From Acidobacteria bacterium 13_1_20CM_3_53_8 (GTDB lineage: Bacteria; Acidobacteriota; Blastocatellia; Pyrinomonadales; Pyrinomonadaceae): DNA of 50,227 nucleotides. The notes below the pieces were generated by a model that saw only the letters and a list, made by a program, of their open reading frames with translations, was not told where the DNA came from and did no database searches. The stretch is taken from NCBI GenBank assembly GCA_001920415.1, contig MNJR01000034.1, positions 1-50,227 on the forward strand, given 5' to 3'. The position numbers and the translations under genes were made by a program. The first letter of the stretch is position 1. Each line of letters starts with the position of its first letter. Positions 7,518 to 38,759 of this stretch are shown here, in pieces.

Positions 7518-8672
7518 ATGGATAACCTGACGCATTCGCTCGTTGGCCTTGCCGCCGCAAAGGCGGGTCTTGAGCGGTGGTCGCCAGCCGCGACTACGCT
7601 GTGCGTGCTTGCTGCCAACGCGCCAGACATTGACGTGCTCTCGGTTTTCGGTGGTCGTTGGGCTAGCCTGCATTATCACAGAGGCATAACTCATTCAATC
7701 GTAGGCACGCTCACGCTCGCAATACTGTTGCCCCTCATCTTTTATCTTATAGGGTTGTTAGTCTCGCGCCGCTCTCGCAAAGAGAATCAACTAAAATTTC
7801 GATGGCTTCTGCTTGCGTCCCTTCTTGTCACGGCGACGCACCCTTTGATGGATTGGACGAACAACTACGGGCTGCGTCCTCTTCTCCCTTGGAACGGAAG
7901 ATGGTTTTATGGCGACCTTGTGTTTATTGCCGATCCGTTGATATGGCTTGTGCTGGCGGGCGCGACCTTCTTGCTTACGTCCAGAACGTGGCGACAGAAA
8001 TTCTTTTGGACTCTGCTGTGGCTGATTACAAGTGCGGGCGTGATTCTTCTTCCTCTTCGCAATCCGAATGTCTCTATCCCGCTCGCCATTCGCATCATCT
8101 GGCTTGTTGGTTTTCTGGGCTTCATCATTGCGCGTAACACTCGCATCGTACGAACGTGGGGACGAGCCATTCCTATCATTGCGCTAGTCTCTATTGTAAT
8201 CTACTGGGGCGCTCTGGCACTTTTGCACGCACGCGCTCTTCATCTAGCGGAAGCTGAAGCCGCATTGCTTGCTGAGCAGAATGGCGAGACAGTTTCGCGC
8301 GTCGCCGCTATGCCTGAGCTTGCTAATCCGTTAAAGTGGCGATGCGTTGCCGAGACCGACAGGGCGATTTACAGGTTCGAGACAAGAGTTAATGAAAGAA
8401 ATGGAAACGGCGAGCTATTAAAACGTTATTCTAAACCAGAGGGAGAAGCAGCCGTACTCGCAGCGCGTGCCGCAGAGGATTGGAGAAGTAAAATCTTTCT
8501 GGACTTCGCAAGATTTCCCGTGGCAAGAGTCGAAGGCGATTGCATGACAGAAGCGCTTGTCCAGTTTGCAGACTTACGTTTTACAGAACCGGGCGGGCGC
8601 GGCGGAAACTTCTCGCTGGAAGTTCCCGTTGAGTGTGATACACAGAACGCGGAGGGCACTGGAGTCAGGTGA
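7518..8672 (+). CDS. Membrane-bound metal-dependent hydrolase (YdjM/DUF457 type)
   Basis: 384 residues. DNLTHSLVGLAAAKAGL at the N-terminus, NAPDIDVLS, HYHRGITHSIVG and THPLMDWTNNYG are the conserved Asp/His clusters of this inner-membrane family, expected to bind metal. Several membrane helices follow (about 60-80, 95-110, 140-155, 165-235). The C-terminal 150 residues are soluble. Substrate unknown. Its stop overlaps the next start by four bases (GTGA), so the two are co-translated. Confidence 0.9.
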   Translation: MDNLTHSLVGLAAAKAGLERWSPAATTLCVLAANAPDIDVLSVFGGRWASLHYHRGITHSIVGTLTLAILLPLIFYLIGLLVSRRSRKENQLKFRWLLLASLLVTATHPLMDWTNNYGLRPLLPWNGRWFYGDLVFIADPLIWLVLAGATFLLTSRTWRQKFFWTLLWLITSAGVILLPLRNPNVSIPLAIRIIWLVGFLGFIIARNTRIVRTWGRAIPIIALVSIVIYWGALALLHARALHLAEAEAALLAEQNGETVSRVAAMPELANPLKWRCVAETDRAIYRFETRVNERNGNGELLKRYSKPEGEAAVLAARAAEDWRSKIFLDFARFPVARVEGDCMTEALVQFADLRFTEPGGRGGNFSLEVPVECDTQNAEGTGVR

Positions 8673-10099
8673 GCGATAACGCGGAACGTAGCGGATTCAA
8701 AGCTTTCACAGATTCGATTTCATCTGCGGAGCTTTCAAAGCCTGGAGCATCTAGCTCAGTAAGCGTGCGCGTGTCTCCGGGCAGCTACCTTGCAGTCTCT
8801 TTCATCCTGACCTTTGCGGCAATCATAGTCTCTCGTAATGAATTCAGTTCGCTCGCTCTTCTCCTTCTGATTGTGGCCTGGCCTGTCACACTTTCCCTGG
8901 CCTTCTTCGACCGCGTTGTCTTCGATGGACGAAAACTTTCGCGCACAGGAATAGTCGCGCTCGTCTCACGTCTGCGCGGTCGCAGGCTGGAGCTTTCCGT
9001 TGACCAGATAGAGCGCGTAGAGATGAGCGCTGTGCGCACGCTTAGAAGCGCAGGGCGCGTGCGTTATCGTTATCGTTGTGAAATGAGCAGCGAGAGCGTG
9101 ACGTTGGTCTTCGCTTCAGGCGGGCAGGGGTTCAGGCGTATGGTGCGCCTGCTCTTTCCGTTAATTGGAGATGAAAAGCTTGACGCGCGAAGCTGCGATT
9201 TGCGCGATTACCTCACAGATCAAAAATCGCTGAACTCTGCTCTTGAAGCTGTGCATCTTGCGCCTTCGTCTGTTCTGGAAGAGTCTGAAGAAAGCGTGCT
9301 GCAAGGCGTTAAGAGTAATAGCAAACGCACCGACACTGACTCAGGACAGTTATCCGAACGGGACGCAGAGCGGGGCCGTCTGCTTCGCCTTCTTGCCAAT
9401 CAATTGCGCGTAATGGGTCGTCTGCGTGAATCCTCAGAAGCTTTTCGTCGTGCGTTCTTGCTTCTGCCGCGCGAGGGGGGTCTTCTTTACGAATACTCAA
9501 GGCTTCTGCGTTCGCGTGCGAGCGCCGCAGGCGATGCGCGATTGTTGTCGCGTTCGCGCGCTGCGCTGAGGCTGGCTATAAAACGTGCTGGCGATAACGC
9601 GAGCGTGCTTGAGCGCGCAGGTGAGAGTTTGGTTGAAGCGGGCGATGCGCGCATCGCTGAAGAAGCGTTTCGTCGCGTGCTCACCTTGAACCCGCGCTCG
9701 TTTCGCGCGGCGACGGGGCTGGCAGAAGTTGCTTTGCGCAGAGGCCAACTCGCGCACATCATTCATCATTTCCGCAATGCTCAGACAATCGCAACCGATA
9801 AAGCATCGCGCCGATTCGCTGCGCGTGAGGCAGAGTATTACGCGCGGCTTTGCGAAGACGACGAGTACATGCTTGCAGAGATGAAAAGAATCAAGTGGCT
9901 GCATCACCTGAACGGCGCGCGACGCACTCTGGTGAGAACAACTTTTGCCGCGCTGCTCCTGGCAGTTGCCGGATCATTCTTTGATGAAGCCCTTGCCTCA
10001 GTCGGCTGGTCAATCGCATCAGGCGCGCTCGCCGCATGGATGATGACGGCGGCAGCGATAAAACTTTTGCTTCAAAGAAGAAAGATAAGAGAGAGTTGA
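8669..10099 (+). CDS. Membrane-anchored TPR protein
   Basis: 476 residues, GTG start overlapping the previous stop. Two membrane segments lie near the N-terminus (about 33-75), then a PH-like stretch (FDRVVFDGRKLSRTG, VDQIERVEMSAV), then TPR repeats at about 240-390 (LRLLANQLRVMGRLRESSEAF, broken as two helices; ARIAEEAFRRVLTLNPRS) and a C-terminal hydrophobic pair (about 425-465). Function unknown; probably a membrane scaffold working with the upstream hydrolase. Confidence 0.82.
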   Translation: MSDNAERSGFKAFTDSISSAELSKPGASSSVSVRVSPGSYLAVSFILTFAAIIVSRNEFSSLALLLLIVAWPVTLSLAFFDRVVFDGRKLSRTGIVALVSRLRGRRLELSVDQIERVEMSAVRTLRSAGRVRYRYRCEMSSESVTLVFASGGQGFRRMVRLLFPLIGDEKLDARSCDLRDYLTDQKSLNSALEAVHLAPSSVLEESEESVLQGVKSNSKRTDTDSGQLSERDAERGRLLRLLANQLRVMGRLRESSEAFRRAFLLLPREGGLLYEYSRLLRSRASAAGDARLLSRSRAALRLAIKRAGDNASVLERAGESLVEAGDARIAEEAFRRVLTLNPRSFRAATGLAEVALRRGQLAHIIHHFRNAQTIATDKASRRFAAREAEYYARLCEDDEYMLAEMKRIKWLHHLNGARRTLVRTTFAALLLAVAGSFFDEALASVGWSIASGALAAWMMTAAAIKLLLQRRKIRES

Positions 10100-32207: not shown

Positions 32208-32629
32208 TAAATCGCCAAATTTTCAGCTTTTTTATCGAAAAACCGCACTTAAGAGTGGTTCTAAGGCGCGGAAAGTCGCTTGGGTTGAAGCGGCGGAGAT
32301 TGAATAACCCTTGTGCTCTGACCAAAAGCAAGAAGCTTTGGCGGGAGGTGAAGCCGTTTGAATAACTCTTATGAGAGAATTTGAAATTTCTATCCTCGTC
32401 TCCCAATCAAAGCTCCATATTGACTGAATTCCTGTCTCTCAACTTGACTGTTCCTTGCCCTCAATCTCGTAGAGTATCAGGAAGAGTGCCCACTTTTCCT
32501 AACAAAACTCGACAAAATGAGGTCTAGCCCTGTGCGGCATATGGCTTGCCAAAGCTTCGGCGGGCTGAAGTCTCGCCCGGACTGCGTGCGGCAGCAATCA
32601 ACTTCGCAAGACCTGAAGGAGTCTTACAA

Positions 32630-35275
32630 GTGAGAGTTAATAAACGTTCCCCGCTCGTTTCATTACTCATAGCATTTTCCGTATTGCTCTCGGTTTGCAG
32701 CGGAACCATCGTTGGCAACAATGCCGGCGCGCAATCCCCCTCAAGCGCCATTCAATCCGCTAATAGACAGAAGAGCAGGGCTGGCTACACACTTCTCTCG
32801 CGCTATGCAACAGAGTTGACGCGACTTGCTCGCCGGGGCGAGCTTGAGCCTGTCACGGGACATGACTCAGAGATTAGCCGCACCATCAATCTTCTATCTT
32901 CAGGTGCGCGCAGTAATCCTGTGCTGATTGGCGATCAAGAGACCAGCATGGCTGTGATTGCTAGCGGGGTGGCGCAAAGAATTGCGTCGGGCAATGTGCC
33001 GGAATCCCTTCGCGGCAAGCAATTGTTCAGTCTAAATGTGGCGGCCATATCGGCAGGCATACAGAGCAGCAGACAGTTTGTGAGCAGGTTGCAGAGCATC
33101 ATTGCGGAAGCGGCGAATAGTAGAGGGGAAGTTATTCTGTTCATTCCCGAACTGCATCAGTTTGTAGGTACGCGCGCGGCCCATGCAGCTTCCGAAGCGA
33201 TGCGAAGCTCGATTGAGCAGGGGCAGTTGCGCGTTGTCGGCGCAACCTCGTCCGAAGCCTATTCAGACTATATTGAAGCAGACTCAACTCTAGCAGGACT
33301 CTTCCAGACAGTGCGACTGGATGTAGAAAATAGAGCCGATTCAGATGTCGCTCAAAACGATGATGAAGACCGGACTCGTGAAGGATTCGAGGGTGTTAAA
33401 GTCTCTTCCGATTTGCGCGAAATAATGCAGAACGCCAGATCAAGCGGAGAGCGCGTGAGCGTTATTCTTCAGGCAGATGATGTGCGGAGCGGGCGTCTCA
33501 ACACATTTCTAAAGCAGAACGGCATCGAGATCAGCGCGAGAATGGCGCAGCTTGGCGCGCTCAGAGTTGATGTCCCCGTTCGAGCGTTAGAACAACTAGC
33601 AGCTAACAGTCAAACGCGCTACCTCTCGCCTGATAGAACGTTTCAGTCCTTCGGCCACATCACTACAACCACAGGCACTGAACAGGTGCGCAATCAACCG
33701 AGCGGCTCGCTCATAGGCGGAATTTTATCCCTCACCAGCGCAACGCTAGACGGCTCAGGCATAGGCATAGCCGTGCTGGATTCAGGTATGGACGCCCAGC
33801 ATGCGGCATTCAAAAAATCTTCCGGCTCCGGCTCTCGTGTAGTCTTTAGCCGCGACTTCACGGGCGAGAACCGCACGGACGACCCATACGGTCATGGCTC
33901 GCACGTAGCTTCATCAGCCGCTGGCTTCAGCTATACTAACGGAAACAGCTACGAGGGAATTGCGCCGAACGCCAACCTCATCAATTTACGCGTGCTCAAT
34001 TCACAGGGTATAGGGACGACCTCGGCTCTATTAAGCGCGCTCAACTGGATGCTCGGTCCGGTTGATGCGACCAAGCCTCTCAGTTCTACAAATCCGACCA
34101 ATCAGAGCAAGTATAACATTCGCGTCGTCAACATGAGCTTGGGCGCACCCGCAGTTGATTCTTACAAGAATGATCCTGTGTGCCGCGCTGTTCGCCAGTT
34201 GGTTGACGCCGGAATAGTCGTCGTCGCAGCCTCTGGAAACAACGGCAAGAATAGCGCCGGGCAGAAGGTTTACGGCCAGATTCATAGTCCCGGCAACGAG
34301 CCTTCAGCGATAACGGTCGGAGCAAGCAACACCTTCGGCACGGACGCGCGCAATGATGACGGCATCACCAGCTTCAGTTCTCGCGGGCCTACGCGCAGCT
34401 ACTCGACGGATGCGAACGGCGTCAAGCATTACGATAATCTGATCAAGCCCGATCTGGCCGCGCCCGGCAATAAACTGATCTATGCCGAATCGGACACCAC
34501 ACAAGGTCCGAATCTCCTGGTCACACAAAACCCACAATTGGATTCAGGCATTACTGACAATGACAACAAGCGGCTGATGTATTTGAGCGGCACGTCAATG
34601 TCAACGCCGCTGGTTGCAGGCGCAGCCGCCTTGATGCTGCAAGCCAATCCGAAGCTGACGCCGAACATGGTCAAAGCAATCCTGATGTACTCGGCGCAGC
34701 CGCTCGCAGGATTCAACATGCTGGAGCAAGGCGCGGGCGAGCTTAACGTCGCGGGCGCTGTTAAGTTGGCCCAGGCCGTTCGCACAGATTTAGGCTCAAA
34801 CCCTGCGCTAGGCACACCCATGTTGTCATCCAGTACGCCGCCCAGTCCGCAGACGACAATTGCCGGACAGACTTTTTCATGGTCGCAAGGTCTGATTCTC
34901 AATTACAGCTACGCCAAAGGCTCGAATCTGATTACACAGTACCAGTCGGTTTACGGCCAGGGCGTTGTGATAGGCGATGGCGTCATCGTTGGCAGCAACA
35001 CTGTGACGCTCAATGGCACGATGATGACGAACGGCGTTGTGATTGGCGACCAGATTATGACCAGCAACGGCGTCGTCATAGGTGACGGCATAGCCTTCCT
35101 ATCCGTCAGCCAGCTTCTAGGCGATGGCGTAGTTATTGGCGACGGCGTGGTAATAGGTGACGGCGTTGTCATAGGCGACGGTGTAGTGATAGGCGATGGC
35201 GTCGTAATAGGCGACGCTTATGTGCAGGCAATGTCGGCCATGCTCAATGGCGATGAAACGGCTTGCATGAAATAG
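32630..35275 (+). CDS. Secreted S8 subtilase with pseudo-ClpB N-domain and VIGDGV tail
   Basis: 881 residues from GTG 32630 (AAGGAG upstream). Signal peptide about 1-35 (SPLVSLLIAFSVLLSV). Residues about 58-232 line up with the D1 AAA+ module of ClpB/ClpC: YATELTRLARRGELEPVTGH, then NPVLIG, GVAQRIASGNVPESLRGK, EVILFIPELHQFVG, GQLRVVGATSSEAYSDYI. But Walker A is lost (GDQETSMA instead of GEPGVGKT) and the Walker B Asp is Pro. Then an I9-like propeptide (about 265-345) and the S8 domain: Asp in AVLDSGMD, His in GHGSHVAS, Asn in AASGNNG, Ser in SGTSMSTPLVAG. The last 110 residues repeat VVIGDG units, probably a beta-roll or surface anchor. Confidence 0.9.
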   Translation: MRVNKRSPLVSLLIAFSVLLSVCSGTIVGNNAGAQSPSSAIQSANRQKSRAGYTLLSRYATELTRLARRGELEPVTGHDSEISRTINLLSSGARSNPVLIGDQETSMAVIASGVAQRIASGNVPESLRGKQLFSLNVAAISAGIQSSRQFVSRLQSIIAEAANSRGEVILFIPELHQFVGTRAAHAASEAMRSSIEQGQLRVVGATSSEAYSDYIEADSTLAGLFQTVRLDVENRADSDVAQNDDEDRTREGFEGVKVSSDLREIMQNARSSGERVSVILQADDVRSGRLNTFLKQNGIEISARMAQLGALRVDVPVRALEQLAANSQTRYLSPDRTFQSFGHITTTTGTEQVRNQPSGSLIGGILSLTSATLDGSGIGIAVLDSGMDAQHAAFKKSSGSGSRVVFSRDFTGENRTDDPYGHGSHVASSAAGFSYTNGNSYEGIAPNANLINLRVLNSQGIGTTSALLSALNWMLGPVDATKPLSSTNPTNQSKYNIRVVNMSLGAPAVDSYKNDPVCRAVRQLVDAGIVVVAASGNNGKNSAGQKVYGQIHSPGNEPSAITVGASNTFGTDARNDDGITSFSSRGPTRSYSTDANGVKHYDNLIKPDLAAPGNKLIYAESDTTQGPNLLVTQNPQLDSGITDNDNKRLMYLSGTSMSTPLVAGAAALMLQANPKLTPNMVKAILMYSAQPLAGFNMLEQGAGELNVAGAVKLAQAVRTDLGSNPALGTPMLSSSTPPSPQTTIAGQTFSWSQGLILNYSYAKGSNLITQYQSVYGQGVVIGDGVIVGSNTVTLNGTMMTNGVVIGDQIMTSNGVVIGDGIAFLSVSQLLGDGVVIGDGVVIGDGVVIGDGVVIGDGVVIGDAYVQAMSAMLNGDETACMK
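34966..35217 (+). repeat. Coding tandem repeat (VVIGDG units)
   Basis: Tandem copies of about 18-21 bp encoding GVVIGDG; five or six nearly adjacent copies lie at 35123-35217. Third-codon-position variety among units (GGCGATGGC, GGTGACGGC, GGCGACGGT) shows selection for the peptide, not simple recent slippage. Confidence 0.85.
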
Positions 35276-35298
35276 AGAGAGCAAGCCCTTTTTGAGAT

Positions 35299-35337
35299 GA
35301 TGCGCGGAAGCCTCCTCTCCAAAGGTTTCCGCGCATC
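35299..35337. terminator. Hairpin between subtilase and GNAT genes
   Basis: GATGCGCGGAAGCCT and AGGTTTCCGCGCATC arms with a 9-nt loop. No clear U-run follows, so termination may be partial. Confidence 0.55.
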
Positions 35338-35389
35338 AAGCATGTTAAGACGGACAGCCCCTCCGGTCGAACCATTTCAGGAGCATTTA

Positions 35390-36307
35390 ATGTCGTCAGC
35401 GATGCCTTCCAAATCTATGGCCGTGCGGTCGTCTCTTCTCTCCCTCGATAGCGACTCTTCAATGAAAGTCAACGTTCACGCCCTCATCGCACTAGAGGAA
35501 GCGGAAGTGCTCGCCTTTCTCGCTCGACGCCCCATTCACACCTCTTTCATAACCGGATTGATACATGACAACGGTCTGGTCAGCCCTTTCAATCGCGGCT
35601 CTTTCTACGGCTTCCGCAATTCATCAGGCCATCTGGAAGGCGTCGCACTGATTGGCCGCAAGACAATTATAGAGACCAATAACGAAGAGGCTCAGGAAGC
35701 TTTCGCGCATCTTGCTCTGAAATCTCCTCTGCCATTTCTACTCAGAGGAGAGCGTAGCCAGATAGAGCGTCTCAAAAATCTTTGCGAAGTGATGGGTCGC
35801 ACGCCACGCCTTATCTGCCGCGAACTGCTGCTTGCCCAAAACTCTTTGCCGGAAGGAATTGAAGAGGTGCAGGAGTTGCGCCCTGCGCCCGAAGACCACT
35901 TGCAGTCCGTCGTTGACGTGAACGCGAAGATGTTTTTTGAAGAGAATGGTGTTAACCCCCTGAAGATTGATCCAGAAGGGATGCGCCAGCGCGTTGCTCA
36001 ACGAATAGAACAGAGGCGCGTCTGGACATGGGTCAAACAGGGGCGTCTGATTTTTAAGGCTGATGTCATCACAGAGACACCAGAAGCAGCATTCATTGAA
36101 GGCGTATATGTTCACCCGTATGAGCGAGGCAGAGGTTTTGGTTTGCGCTGTATGACTCAGCTTGCACGCCATCTTCTGCAACGCACGGCTTCGCTTTCTC
36201 TAATCGTCAACGAAGAGAACTTGATAGCGCGCGCTCTCTATCGTAAAGCAGGCTACGAGCATCACTGCAATTACAGTACGCTCTACTTCTCAGGAATGAT
36301 CGAATAG
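35390..36307 (+). CDS. GNAT-family acetyltransferase
   Basis: 305 residues from ATG 35390 (AGGAG upstream); earlier in-frame ATGs lie inside the hairpin before it. The C-terminal GNAT fold is clear: FIEGVYVHPYERGRGFGLRC contains the acetyl-CoA loop (R-G-R-G-F-G) and NEENLIARALYRKAGYEHHC the late helix. The N-terminal 150 residues resemble the DUF4081-type domain found before such GNATs. Substrate unknown. Confidence 0.9.
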   Translation: MSSAMPSKSMAVRSSLLSLDSDSSMKVNVHALIALEEAEVLAFLARRPIHTSFITGLIHDNGLVSPFNRGSFYGFRNSSGHLEGVALIGRKTIIETNNEEAQEAFAHLALKSPLPFLLRGERSQIERLKNLCEVMGRTPRLICRELLLAQNSLPEGIEEVQELRPAPEDHLQSVVDVNAKMFFEENGVNPLKIDPEGMRQRVAQRIEQRRVWTWVKQGRLIFKADVITETPEAAFIEGVYVHPYERGRGFGLRCMTQLARHLLQRTASLSLIVNEENLIARALYRKAGYEHHCNYSTLYFSGMIE

Positions 36308-36335: not shown

Positions 36336-38556
36336 GTGGATACGACACTGAAGCTCATCGGCAGACAAAGATTCGCAAGCCTATACCAGTGGACAATCAT
36401 AGTCCTCGGCGCGCTTGTGTTCTGCTCTTCCGCCGCTCACATCCCGCTTCAGCTAATAGACATGCGTTACCTGTTGCTGACTTCCATGACGGTCATCATC
36501 AGTTCGCGTCTCGCTGTCAAAGTCCCGCGCGTCAACACCAACGTAACCATCTCCGACACCTTCATCTTCCTTGCGCTGCTGCTATACGGCGGCGACGCTG
36601 CAATCATATTGGCGACGGCAGAAGGGCTTTGCTCAGGAGCCAGAGTCGGCAAGAAACTTCGAACGATTCTCTTCAACTCGGCTGTAATGGCCTGCTCAAC
36701 AATGCTAACGGCTCAGGCCGTCAACTTCATCTTCGGCGATCCGACAGAGTTGCTGCGACAGACTTTCTCAGTCGTCATGATGGGAACTTGCGTGATAGCG
36801 CTCGCGCAATACTTTGCCAACACATGGATAGCCGCGATAGGCATGTCCTTCAAGAACAATCAACCGTTCTTGAAGATGTGGAGCGAAAATTTTCTCTGGA
36901 TTTCGATAACATACTTTGCTGGCGCAGGCGCAGCCAGTTTCATCGCGAGCAGTGTCGGAATGATAGGCTTCTACGCAATGCTCGTCGCCGTACCCATCAT
37001 CTCGATTCTCTATTTCACCTACTACAAATATCTGGAAGACATCCGTGCAACCTCCGCACAGGCCGAGCAGGCAGAGCGTGCGCGAGCAGAAGCCGAGCGT
37101 GCAAGAGCCGAGATTGAGCGAGAGCGCGCCGAACAGGCCGAACACCACGTAGAAGAATTGAACCTGCACATAGCCGAGCAGGAACGCATCAGTTGCGCGC
37201 TTGAAGAGAGCCGCGAGCATTTCCGTCACGCAGCTTTTCATGATGCGCTGACGGGGCTGCCGAACCGCGCGCTTCTAACAGACCACCTGAAGCTTTCGAT
37301 TGAACGCGCGAAACTTCATCACGATCATCTCTTCGCAGTTCTCTTTCTAGACCTGGATCGCTTCAAGAATATCAACGACAGTCTGGGCCACGTAGCTGGC
37401 GACCAGTTGCTCATCAACATCGCTCGAAGATTGGAAGAATGCCTGCGCCCGACCGATACGGTTGCGCGTCTTGGCGGCGACGAGTTCGCAATCCTTCTTG
37501 ATGGGCTGGAAGAATACGATGATGCTATACGTGTGGCCGAGCGTGCGCAGCGAGAGTTGATGCGACCTTTCAACCTGAACGGGCACGAAGTCTACACAAC
37601 TGCGAGCATAGGCATAACCTTGAGCACTACGGATTACGACCACCCGGAAAGCGTGCTGCGCGACGCAGACACAGCCATGTATCGCGCCAAAGAGAACGGC
37701 AAGGCTCGCTACGAACTGTTCGACAAGATAATGCACGCGCGCGCTGTCGAGCGATTGCAGTTAGAGAATGATCTGCGGCGCGCAATTGAACGAAGCGAGT
37801 TTCATGTTTACTACCAGCCCATCGTCTCGCTCGATGCGGACAGGCTTGCTGGCTTTGAAGCCCTCGTCAGATGGGAGCACCCGGAGCGCGGCATTATCTC
37901 GCCCATTGAATTCATAGCCAGCGCAGAAGAGACAGGGTTGATTGTAGAGTTGGGCCAATGGGTTCTTAAAGAAGCCTGCCGACAGATGCATGAATGGCAA
38001 TGGCAGAATCGCGCTCACCGCCATCTGAGACCTGCTAGGCCAGATCAAGCGCACGCTTTCTGAAACTGGGCTTGATCCGCGCTGTCTTAAGCTTGAGATA
38101 ACGGAATCGGTCGTGATGGAGAACGCAGAGACGGCCAGCACAATGCTTATGCAACTACGCGCTCTAGGCGTTCACCTGAGCATAGACGATTTTGGCACGG
38201 GCTATTCTTCATTGAGCTACCTGCACCGTTTCCCCGTCAACACCTTGAAGATTGACCGCTCGTTCATCAGCCGCATGGGAGCGGGCGACGAGAACACAGA
38301 GATCGTTCGCACCATCATCACGCTCGCCAGCAATCTTGGCATGAAAGTCATCGCCGAAGGAGTCGAAACGCAATCGCAACTTGCTCAGCTTAAAGAGATG
38401 AAATGCGATTACGGGCAAGGCTATCTCTTCTCCAGACCAATGCACGCTGAAGCGGCTGGACTGCTTATCCTCAGAGGATACCGTCAGCCCGTTGAATCCG
38501 ATATGGAGGAGAAAATTCTAGATGCTTCTGAGGATAGCTTTGTGTATATCAATTAA
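36336..38556 (+). pseudogene. Membrane GGDEF-EAL protein, broken in the EAL domain
   Basis: GTG start. Five or six membrane helices (about 20-230), a coiled coil rich in Ala/Glu/Arg (about 240-285), then an intact GGDEF domain (RLGGDEFAILLDG) and the start of an EAL domain (GFEALVRWEHP). The first frame stops at 38063. The rest of EAL continues in another frame from about 38028 (DLLGQIKRTLSETGLD, then EITESVV, DDFGTGYSSLSYL, KIDRSF, VIAEGVET) to 38556. The expected VNLS segment with its metal-binding Asn is missing, so a deletion with frameshift removed it. The cyclase part may still be made; the phosphodiesterase is very likely dead. A sequencing error cannot be excluded but would not explain the lost segment. 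Confidence 0.85.
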
Positions 38557-38759
38557 GCTGGCGGGCGCAGGATGGTATGAAGACTTGCGCGCAATTGGAT
38601 ATAAGAAGCAGTTTGAGAAAGCATAGATGAGGATGTCCCTGACGGGACTTTTCATACAGATTCTAACAGTTTTCTAAAGAAGAACCCGCACGCTTTCCAT
38701 ACCGGAATATCACATTCCAGTTTCCGATTGACCTGATACCGAAGATGTTCGGCGTGCCA

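Follow-up and report, generated by a model that had tools for sequence, protein, structure and literature searches.

Clp domains are known from textbooks as ATP motors that work inside the cell, and the locus described here raises the question of what a domain of this kind does at the front of a protease that appears to be destined for export. The gene lies in the window (the whole stretch of DNA analysed, 50,227 nucleotides long) at 32630..35275 on the forward (+) strand, as do all window features mentioned below, and encodes a protein of 881 aa that begins with a GTG codon and continues without internal stop up to 35275. Direct reading of the sequence reveals a Shine-Dalgarno-like AAGGAG (32616..32621) 8 nt 5' of the GTG at 32630, and there is an alternative in-frame TTG further upstream, at 32546. 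From the N- to the C-terminus, the protein comprises a signal peptide, a domain that we call pseudo-AAA, an acidic linker, an I9-like propeptide, an S8 protease, and a tail of hexapeptides. The signal peptide is of the Sec type (32630..32731), with cleavage predicted between AGA and Q from the sequence and a heuristic. The same kind of simple heuristic found an N-terminal signal peptide in all the testable fused proteins of the family (91/91), in agreement with the placement behind such a segment proposed by an earlier, sequence-only reading of this DNA, and in none of 15 Clp controls (0/15); export itself is inferred.

The pseudo-AAA domain (32786..33322) corresponds, by both homology and structure comparison, to the large subdomain of ClpB NBD1 without the lid subdomain. 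Its 179 residues matched ClpB over their full length in a phmmer search against the PDB (E = 1.4e-38), matched the NCBIfam ClpB profile TIGR03346 (E = 1.6e-47, profile positions 142-335), and shared 44% identity with the ClpB of the same genome (E = 1.8e-42). The Pfam AAA profile gave only a weak match on the window protein, under the cut-off (E = 0.0016), so that routine annotation could overlook the domain. An AF2 model built with 82 family sequences as input had a core pLDDT of about 92-98; its best Foldseek match was ClpB NBD1 (1jbk, E = 4.9e-17), with which VIA-align superposed 183 residues at 2.2 Å (Z 27.6, 38% identity). The domain can therefore be counted as an AAA+ alpha/beta large subdomain related to Clp NBD1, and its homology with ClpB is certain. 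The five motifs from which the sequence-only reading had deduced a ClpB-like AAA+ module are all present in the order that it gave, the E-values of the phmmer and NCBIfam matches excluding a chance resemblance, and the profile and structure searches that could have refuted the deduction returned ClpB and ClpB NBD1, respectively. That reading had invoked the first AAA+ module of ClpB/ClpC, which is correct as regards ClpB NBD1 but only for its large subdomain: the lid subdomain and the second NBD are absent, and the linker and then the propeptide follow directly. A different fold for the N-terminal domain is ruled out by the Foldseek and VIA-align matches, and the models and structure comparison indicate that its homologues share the ClpB NBD1 fold. 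Chance resemblance or an assembly chimera can likewise be discarded given the ClpB matches, the ClpB of the same genome, and the recurrence of the fusion in relatives.

Practically nothing of the ATPase chemistry remains. In the window protein, Walker A reads GDQETSMA instead of GEPGVGKT (32930..32953), Walker B reads ILFIPE instead of ILFIDE, with Pro replacing Asp and the Glu retained (33134..33151), and Gly-Leu occupies the position of the ClpB arginine-finger pair, the RR of ERRF (33296..33301, by comparison with ClpB). The protein consequently presents none of the attributes of an active ATPase (Walker A GxxxxGK[ST], Walker B hhhhDE, Arg fingers) and neither of those of an unfoldase (a pore-loop aromatic residue; lid plus second NBD). 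We extended these observations by aligning 92 fused proteins, full or nearly full length, against ClpB controls. The loss of Walker A already noticed from the sequence extends to the family, since its Lys is lost in 89/92 members and retained in only three (L050, L123, and L157), and the Thr/Ser that follows it is mostly gone as well; in L050, Walker A is almost intact (GETGVGKA). The Asp to Pro replacement in Walker B, in contrast, holds for the window protein but not family-wide, as the Asp is present in 53/92 members (the Glu in 38/92). The pore-loop Tyr (KYRG) is found in 0/92, mostly replaced by Ser, Thr, Asp, or Asn, and both arginine-finger positions are altered throughout the family. 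All pseudo-AAA positions conserved in at least 60% of the sequences (the DLTxLARxGxL helix, PV, A, RIAxGxVPxxL, ILF, G, Y, I, and F) coincide with sites conserved in ClpB, mostly structural ones, and the core hydrophobic residues and the fold persist even in very divergent members. The conservation analysis of the domain detected no new family-wide polar motif in place of the active site; local motifs, such as DExGENQ at the Walker A site, are shared within subclades. In 16 close pairs, the pseudo-AAA had a dN/dS of 0.08-0.38, against 0.04-0.23 for the propeptide and, where computable, 0.04-0.13 for the S8 domain. The pseudo-AAA is a constrained yet fast-evolving domain. Taken together, its identity, its export, and its loss of ATPase motifs leave us very little doubt.

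Downstream of the acidic linker (33323..33385, modelled with low predicted confidence), the protein resembles known subtilases. The S8 catalytic domain (33752..34714) matched PF00082 with E = 5.1e-48, and the catalytic D, H, and S and the oxyanion N are invariant across 82 aligned family members; the protease is thus complete, as had been surmised from the sequence, which makes a latency mechanism plausible. The full-length model (mean pLDDT 81.9, pTM 0.72, with a poorly predicted tail) aligned with subtilases with Z 35-43, with ProN-Tk-SP (3afg_B) over 420 residues with Z 43.5 (model 224-775), and with unprocessed pro-Tk-subtilisin over model 244-686. The I9/fervidolysin-like propeptide (33386..33658) was delimited using the model and invariant columns, and ends with a conserved GH ahead of the likely processing loop. 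No Pfam propeptide match was found in the window protein by the Pfam search, and PF22148 had a weak match, under the cut-off, in one relative (L060). The assignment to the I9/fervidolysin type rests instead on the model, in which DSSP gives the order beta-alpha-beta-beta-alpha-beta (model 245-304), and on the alignment with zymogens; the two stretches in which processing would be expected (model 312-319 and 326-339) have low confidence. The tail contains repeats of the hexapeptide GVVIGD (35117..35212), encoded by an 18-nt tandem repeat (35118-35216). Tails with variant units (GVLVSD, GILMGD) terminate fused and unfused paralogues alike, and a GDxTxxM-like C-terminus closes most of these proteins.

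Among 60 relatives searched, fused proteins were confined to the source's own family. A profile constructed from 32 fused proteins retrieved matches at 1e-60 in 78/119 genomes of the order; about 75 of these contained rows (about 109 in all) that spanned both the AAA and the protease, and 3 had the protease part alone; the fusion is accordingly conserved among homologues, a point that the sequence-only reading had left to be checked. Neither a search of the class (162 genomes) nor a sample of the phylum (396 genomes) yielded the fusion outside the source family among the matches listed, which were ClpB-type only (model 3-192) or propeptide-protease only (about 192-376). In a quick propeptide-protease tree (LG+G4), 89 fused and 4 unfused rows formed one clade (SH-aLRT 99) on which the fused or unfused state requires 4 changes, one gain with later losses being the simplest reading. 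In its own tree, the pseudo-AAA formed a single clade separate from Clp sequences (support 100/98), with long branches that reached 0.5-1 change per site between lineages. Both trees fit a single capture and a few losses. The computational evidence establishes that exported S8 proteases gained the ClpB NBD1 large subdomain once, behind the signal peptide and ahead of the I9-type propeptide, and that the ATP-binding, arginine-finger, and pore-loop chemistry was lost after this capture while the fold was retained.

Pseudo-AAA without a protease was encountered in one case, L085, where a 193-aa ORF encoding this domain only (2345-2926, -) is followed by a GNAT gene in two frames (1204-2117, -); this looks like a decaying locus, a copy that has lost its protease. 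The other AAA matches listed in 29 near-complete genomes of the family were Clp-length frames or fused proteases, except two shorter frames in G015. A fused-type copy in another genome (G060:C1:2066563-2067468, -, read from L175) carries a single in-frame TGA within the matched region and is probably a pseudogene. L194, cut off at a contig edge, is possibly a fused gene in truncated form, and L195, which has a divergent N-terminal part, was grouped in the tree among the fused rows. In L054, a full ClpC-like gene (7581-9965, +) and the fused protease lie side by side on opposite strands, perhaps by chance. A contig scan with a single protein as query detected one locus, in a Desulfuromonadaceae MAG, with 33% identity over the AAA part.

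Comparison of neighbourhoods showed that a GNAT acetyltransferase gene (35297..36307) is the conserved downstream neighbour of the fused gene, followed by a likewise conserved second neighbour, a membrane GGDEF-EAL gene (36336..38063) with an interrupted EAL part. Where 999 or more downstream bases were available (27 loci), GNAT and/or GGDEF-EAL genes occur 3' of the fused gene in 22 cases; among 53 further loci with 400 bases or more, 43 have GNAT. Both are also found 3' of many unfused paralogues, so this cluster belongs to the protease lineage rather than to the fusion, and a fusion-specific operon is ruled out. In the window, the interruption of the EAL half (37900-38560) shows in a GGDEF-EAL frame that stops at 38063 and in a match to the EAL profile that breaks off at position 85 of 236, and EAL-like sequence apparently continues downstream in another frame; an assembly error or a pseudogene may account for this. 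The unfused paralogues have the signal peptide, propeptide, S8 domain, and hexapeptide tail of the fused proteins but lack the pseudo-AAA, the five closest ones, in the same genome, being 51-59% identical over propeptide and S8. Together with the four nested apparent losses, they indicate that the pseudo-AAA is not essential for the fold.

What, then, might an ATP-free chaperone domain do in such a protein? In the S8 family, the propeptide is normally removed by the enzyme itself, and a domain ahead of it would normally depart too. Because the pseudo-AAA occupies precisely that position, our preferred interpretation, to which we give a probability of about 0.5, is that it acts as an extra N-terminal pro-segment, a role that is inferred, neither processing nor release having been shown. 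The domain would cross the inner membrane via Sec together with the zymogen, fold without nucleotide, and assist folding, latency, or docking by binding protein or by blocking sterically; the protease would then cleave itself after the I9 propeptide, with which the pseudo-AAA would leave, and the mature enzyme would come to resemble the unfused paralogues. Several lines of evidence speak for such a role: the pseudo-AAA is N-terminal to the propeptide in every fused protein read, the predicted structure aligns with unprocessed zymogens over propeptide and protease, the dN/dS of the domain is closer to that of the propeptide than to that of S8, its conserved positions are mostly structural sites of ClpB with no new family-wide polar motif, and the trees support a single capture with long retention. 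Against it, paralogues in the same genome manage without the domain, and subclade motifs such as DExGENQ could be binding sites of a domain that is retained. A further suggestion, that the released pseudo-AAA works outside the cytoplasm as a nucleotide-free chaperone or inhibitor, an ATP-independent folding or holding factor for the protease, is tentative and, in our opinion, rather unlikely.

The main rival explanation is precisely such retention, the pseudo-AAA remaining on the mature protease, or stably bound by it, and recognizing substrates or partners outside the inner membrane. Purifying selection on the domain, the lineage-specific conserved loops that replace Walker A, and the rapid divergence between lineages, as if different partners were being tracked, speak for this reading, but ordinary self-processing would detach a domain lying N-terminal to a propeptide modelled as in zymogens and no surface motif is common to the whole family, so that we view retention as possible, though doubtful. 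The same rapid divergence, the few nested losses in the tree, and the absence of a new conserved motif could also be explained by a passenger that is merely tolerated, a folded spacer acquired in a single event and without selected function beyond being harmless to export; this is improbable in view of dN/dS values far under 1 in the 16 close pairs, the preservation of core hydrophobics and fold in very divergent members, and the retention of the domain in 89/93 rows of the clade. Hexamers being the normal state of the ClpB NBD1 fold, a nucleotide-free ring or heteromer comparable to Clp or LAP1-Torsin might cluster the proteases or form a cage, and LAP1, whose lumenal AAA+ fold is devoid of nucleotide motifs, has been proposed to form rings (PMC4358337), but LAP1 retains the arginine finger that the fused-protease family has lost, and with Walker A and the pore-loop Tyr also gone and the lid subdomain missing, we consider this assembly very improbable. 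Sensing of extracytoplasmic ATP or a related ligand by a pseudo-AAA still able to bind nucleotide is hardly tenable, since the nearly intact Walker A of L050 and the Walker B Asp of 53/92 members have to be set against a Walker A Lys missing from 89/92, the loss, in most members, of the Thr/Ser after it, and the disappearance of the finger residues.

We found no description in the open-access literature of an exported protease with a pseudo-ATPase of Clp origin fused to it, nor any open-access work combining subtilase, AAA+ domain, and Acidobacteria or dealing with Pyrinomonadaceae and subtilisin. As far as could be searched, a nucleotide-free chaperone or inhibitor role outside the cytoplasm would, if true, be an undescribed use of the Hsp100 fold. 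A part of a chaperone motor seems to have been put to new use as an ATP-free accessory to an enzyme that is exported: a Clp domain was acquired in a single event, lost its chemistry, and was retained over family-level evolutionary time. The 92 sequences, in which Walker A ranges from nearly intact to none, provide a natural series for exploring the capacities of an AAA+ fold in the absence of ATP, and the idea of a pro-segment is directly testable using one fused protein and its unfused paralogue.

Several known systems share one or another of these features. ClpB/Hsp104 NBD1 (PDB 1jbk, 4hse; TIGR03346) has the same fold and clear homology with the pseudo-AAA (38-44% identity), but the fused protein lacks the lid, NBD2, and the middle and N domains of ClpB/Hsp104, and its pseudo-AAA, predicted to be exported and fused to a protease, lacks Walker A, the arginine finger, and the pore loop. 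Tk-SP, Tk-subtilisin, and fervidolysin, S8 enzymes with an N-terminal propeptide of the I9/fervidolysin type, have the same propeptide and catalytic architecture, to which the fused family adds a whole chaperone-derived domain ahead of the propeptide. The Pfam NBD_SMAX1 profile was matched by 11/82 pseudo-AAA members. The plant SMXL/SMAX1/D53 proteins, atypical Clp relatives that serve as regulators, offer another example of non-chaperone use of a ClpB derivative (PMC9133912); unlike the pseudo-AAA, they regulate transcription inside the cell and are built of N, D1, M, and D2 domains, without export or protease. LAP1 and LULL1, lumenal activators of Torsin, have an AAA+ fold that lacks nucleotide-binding motifs and is located in a non-cytosolic compartment, but LAP1 has kept its arginine finger, activates a live ATPase, is not fused to a protease, and belongs to a different lineage (PMC4358337).
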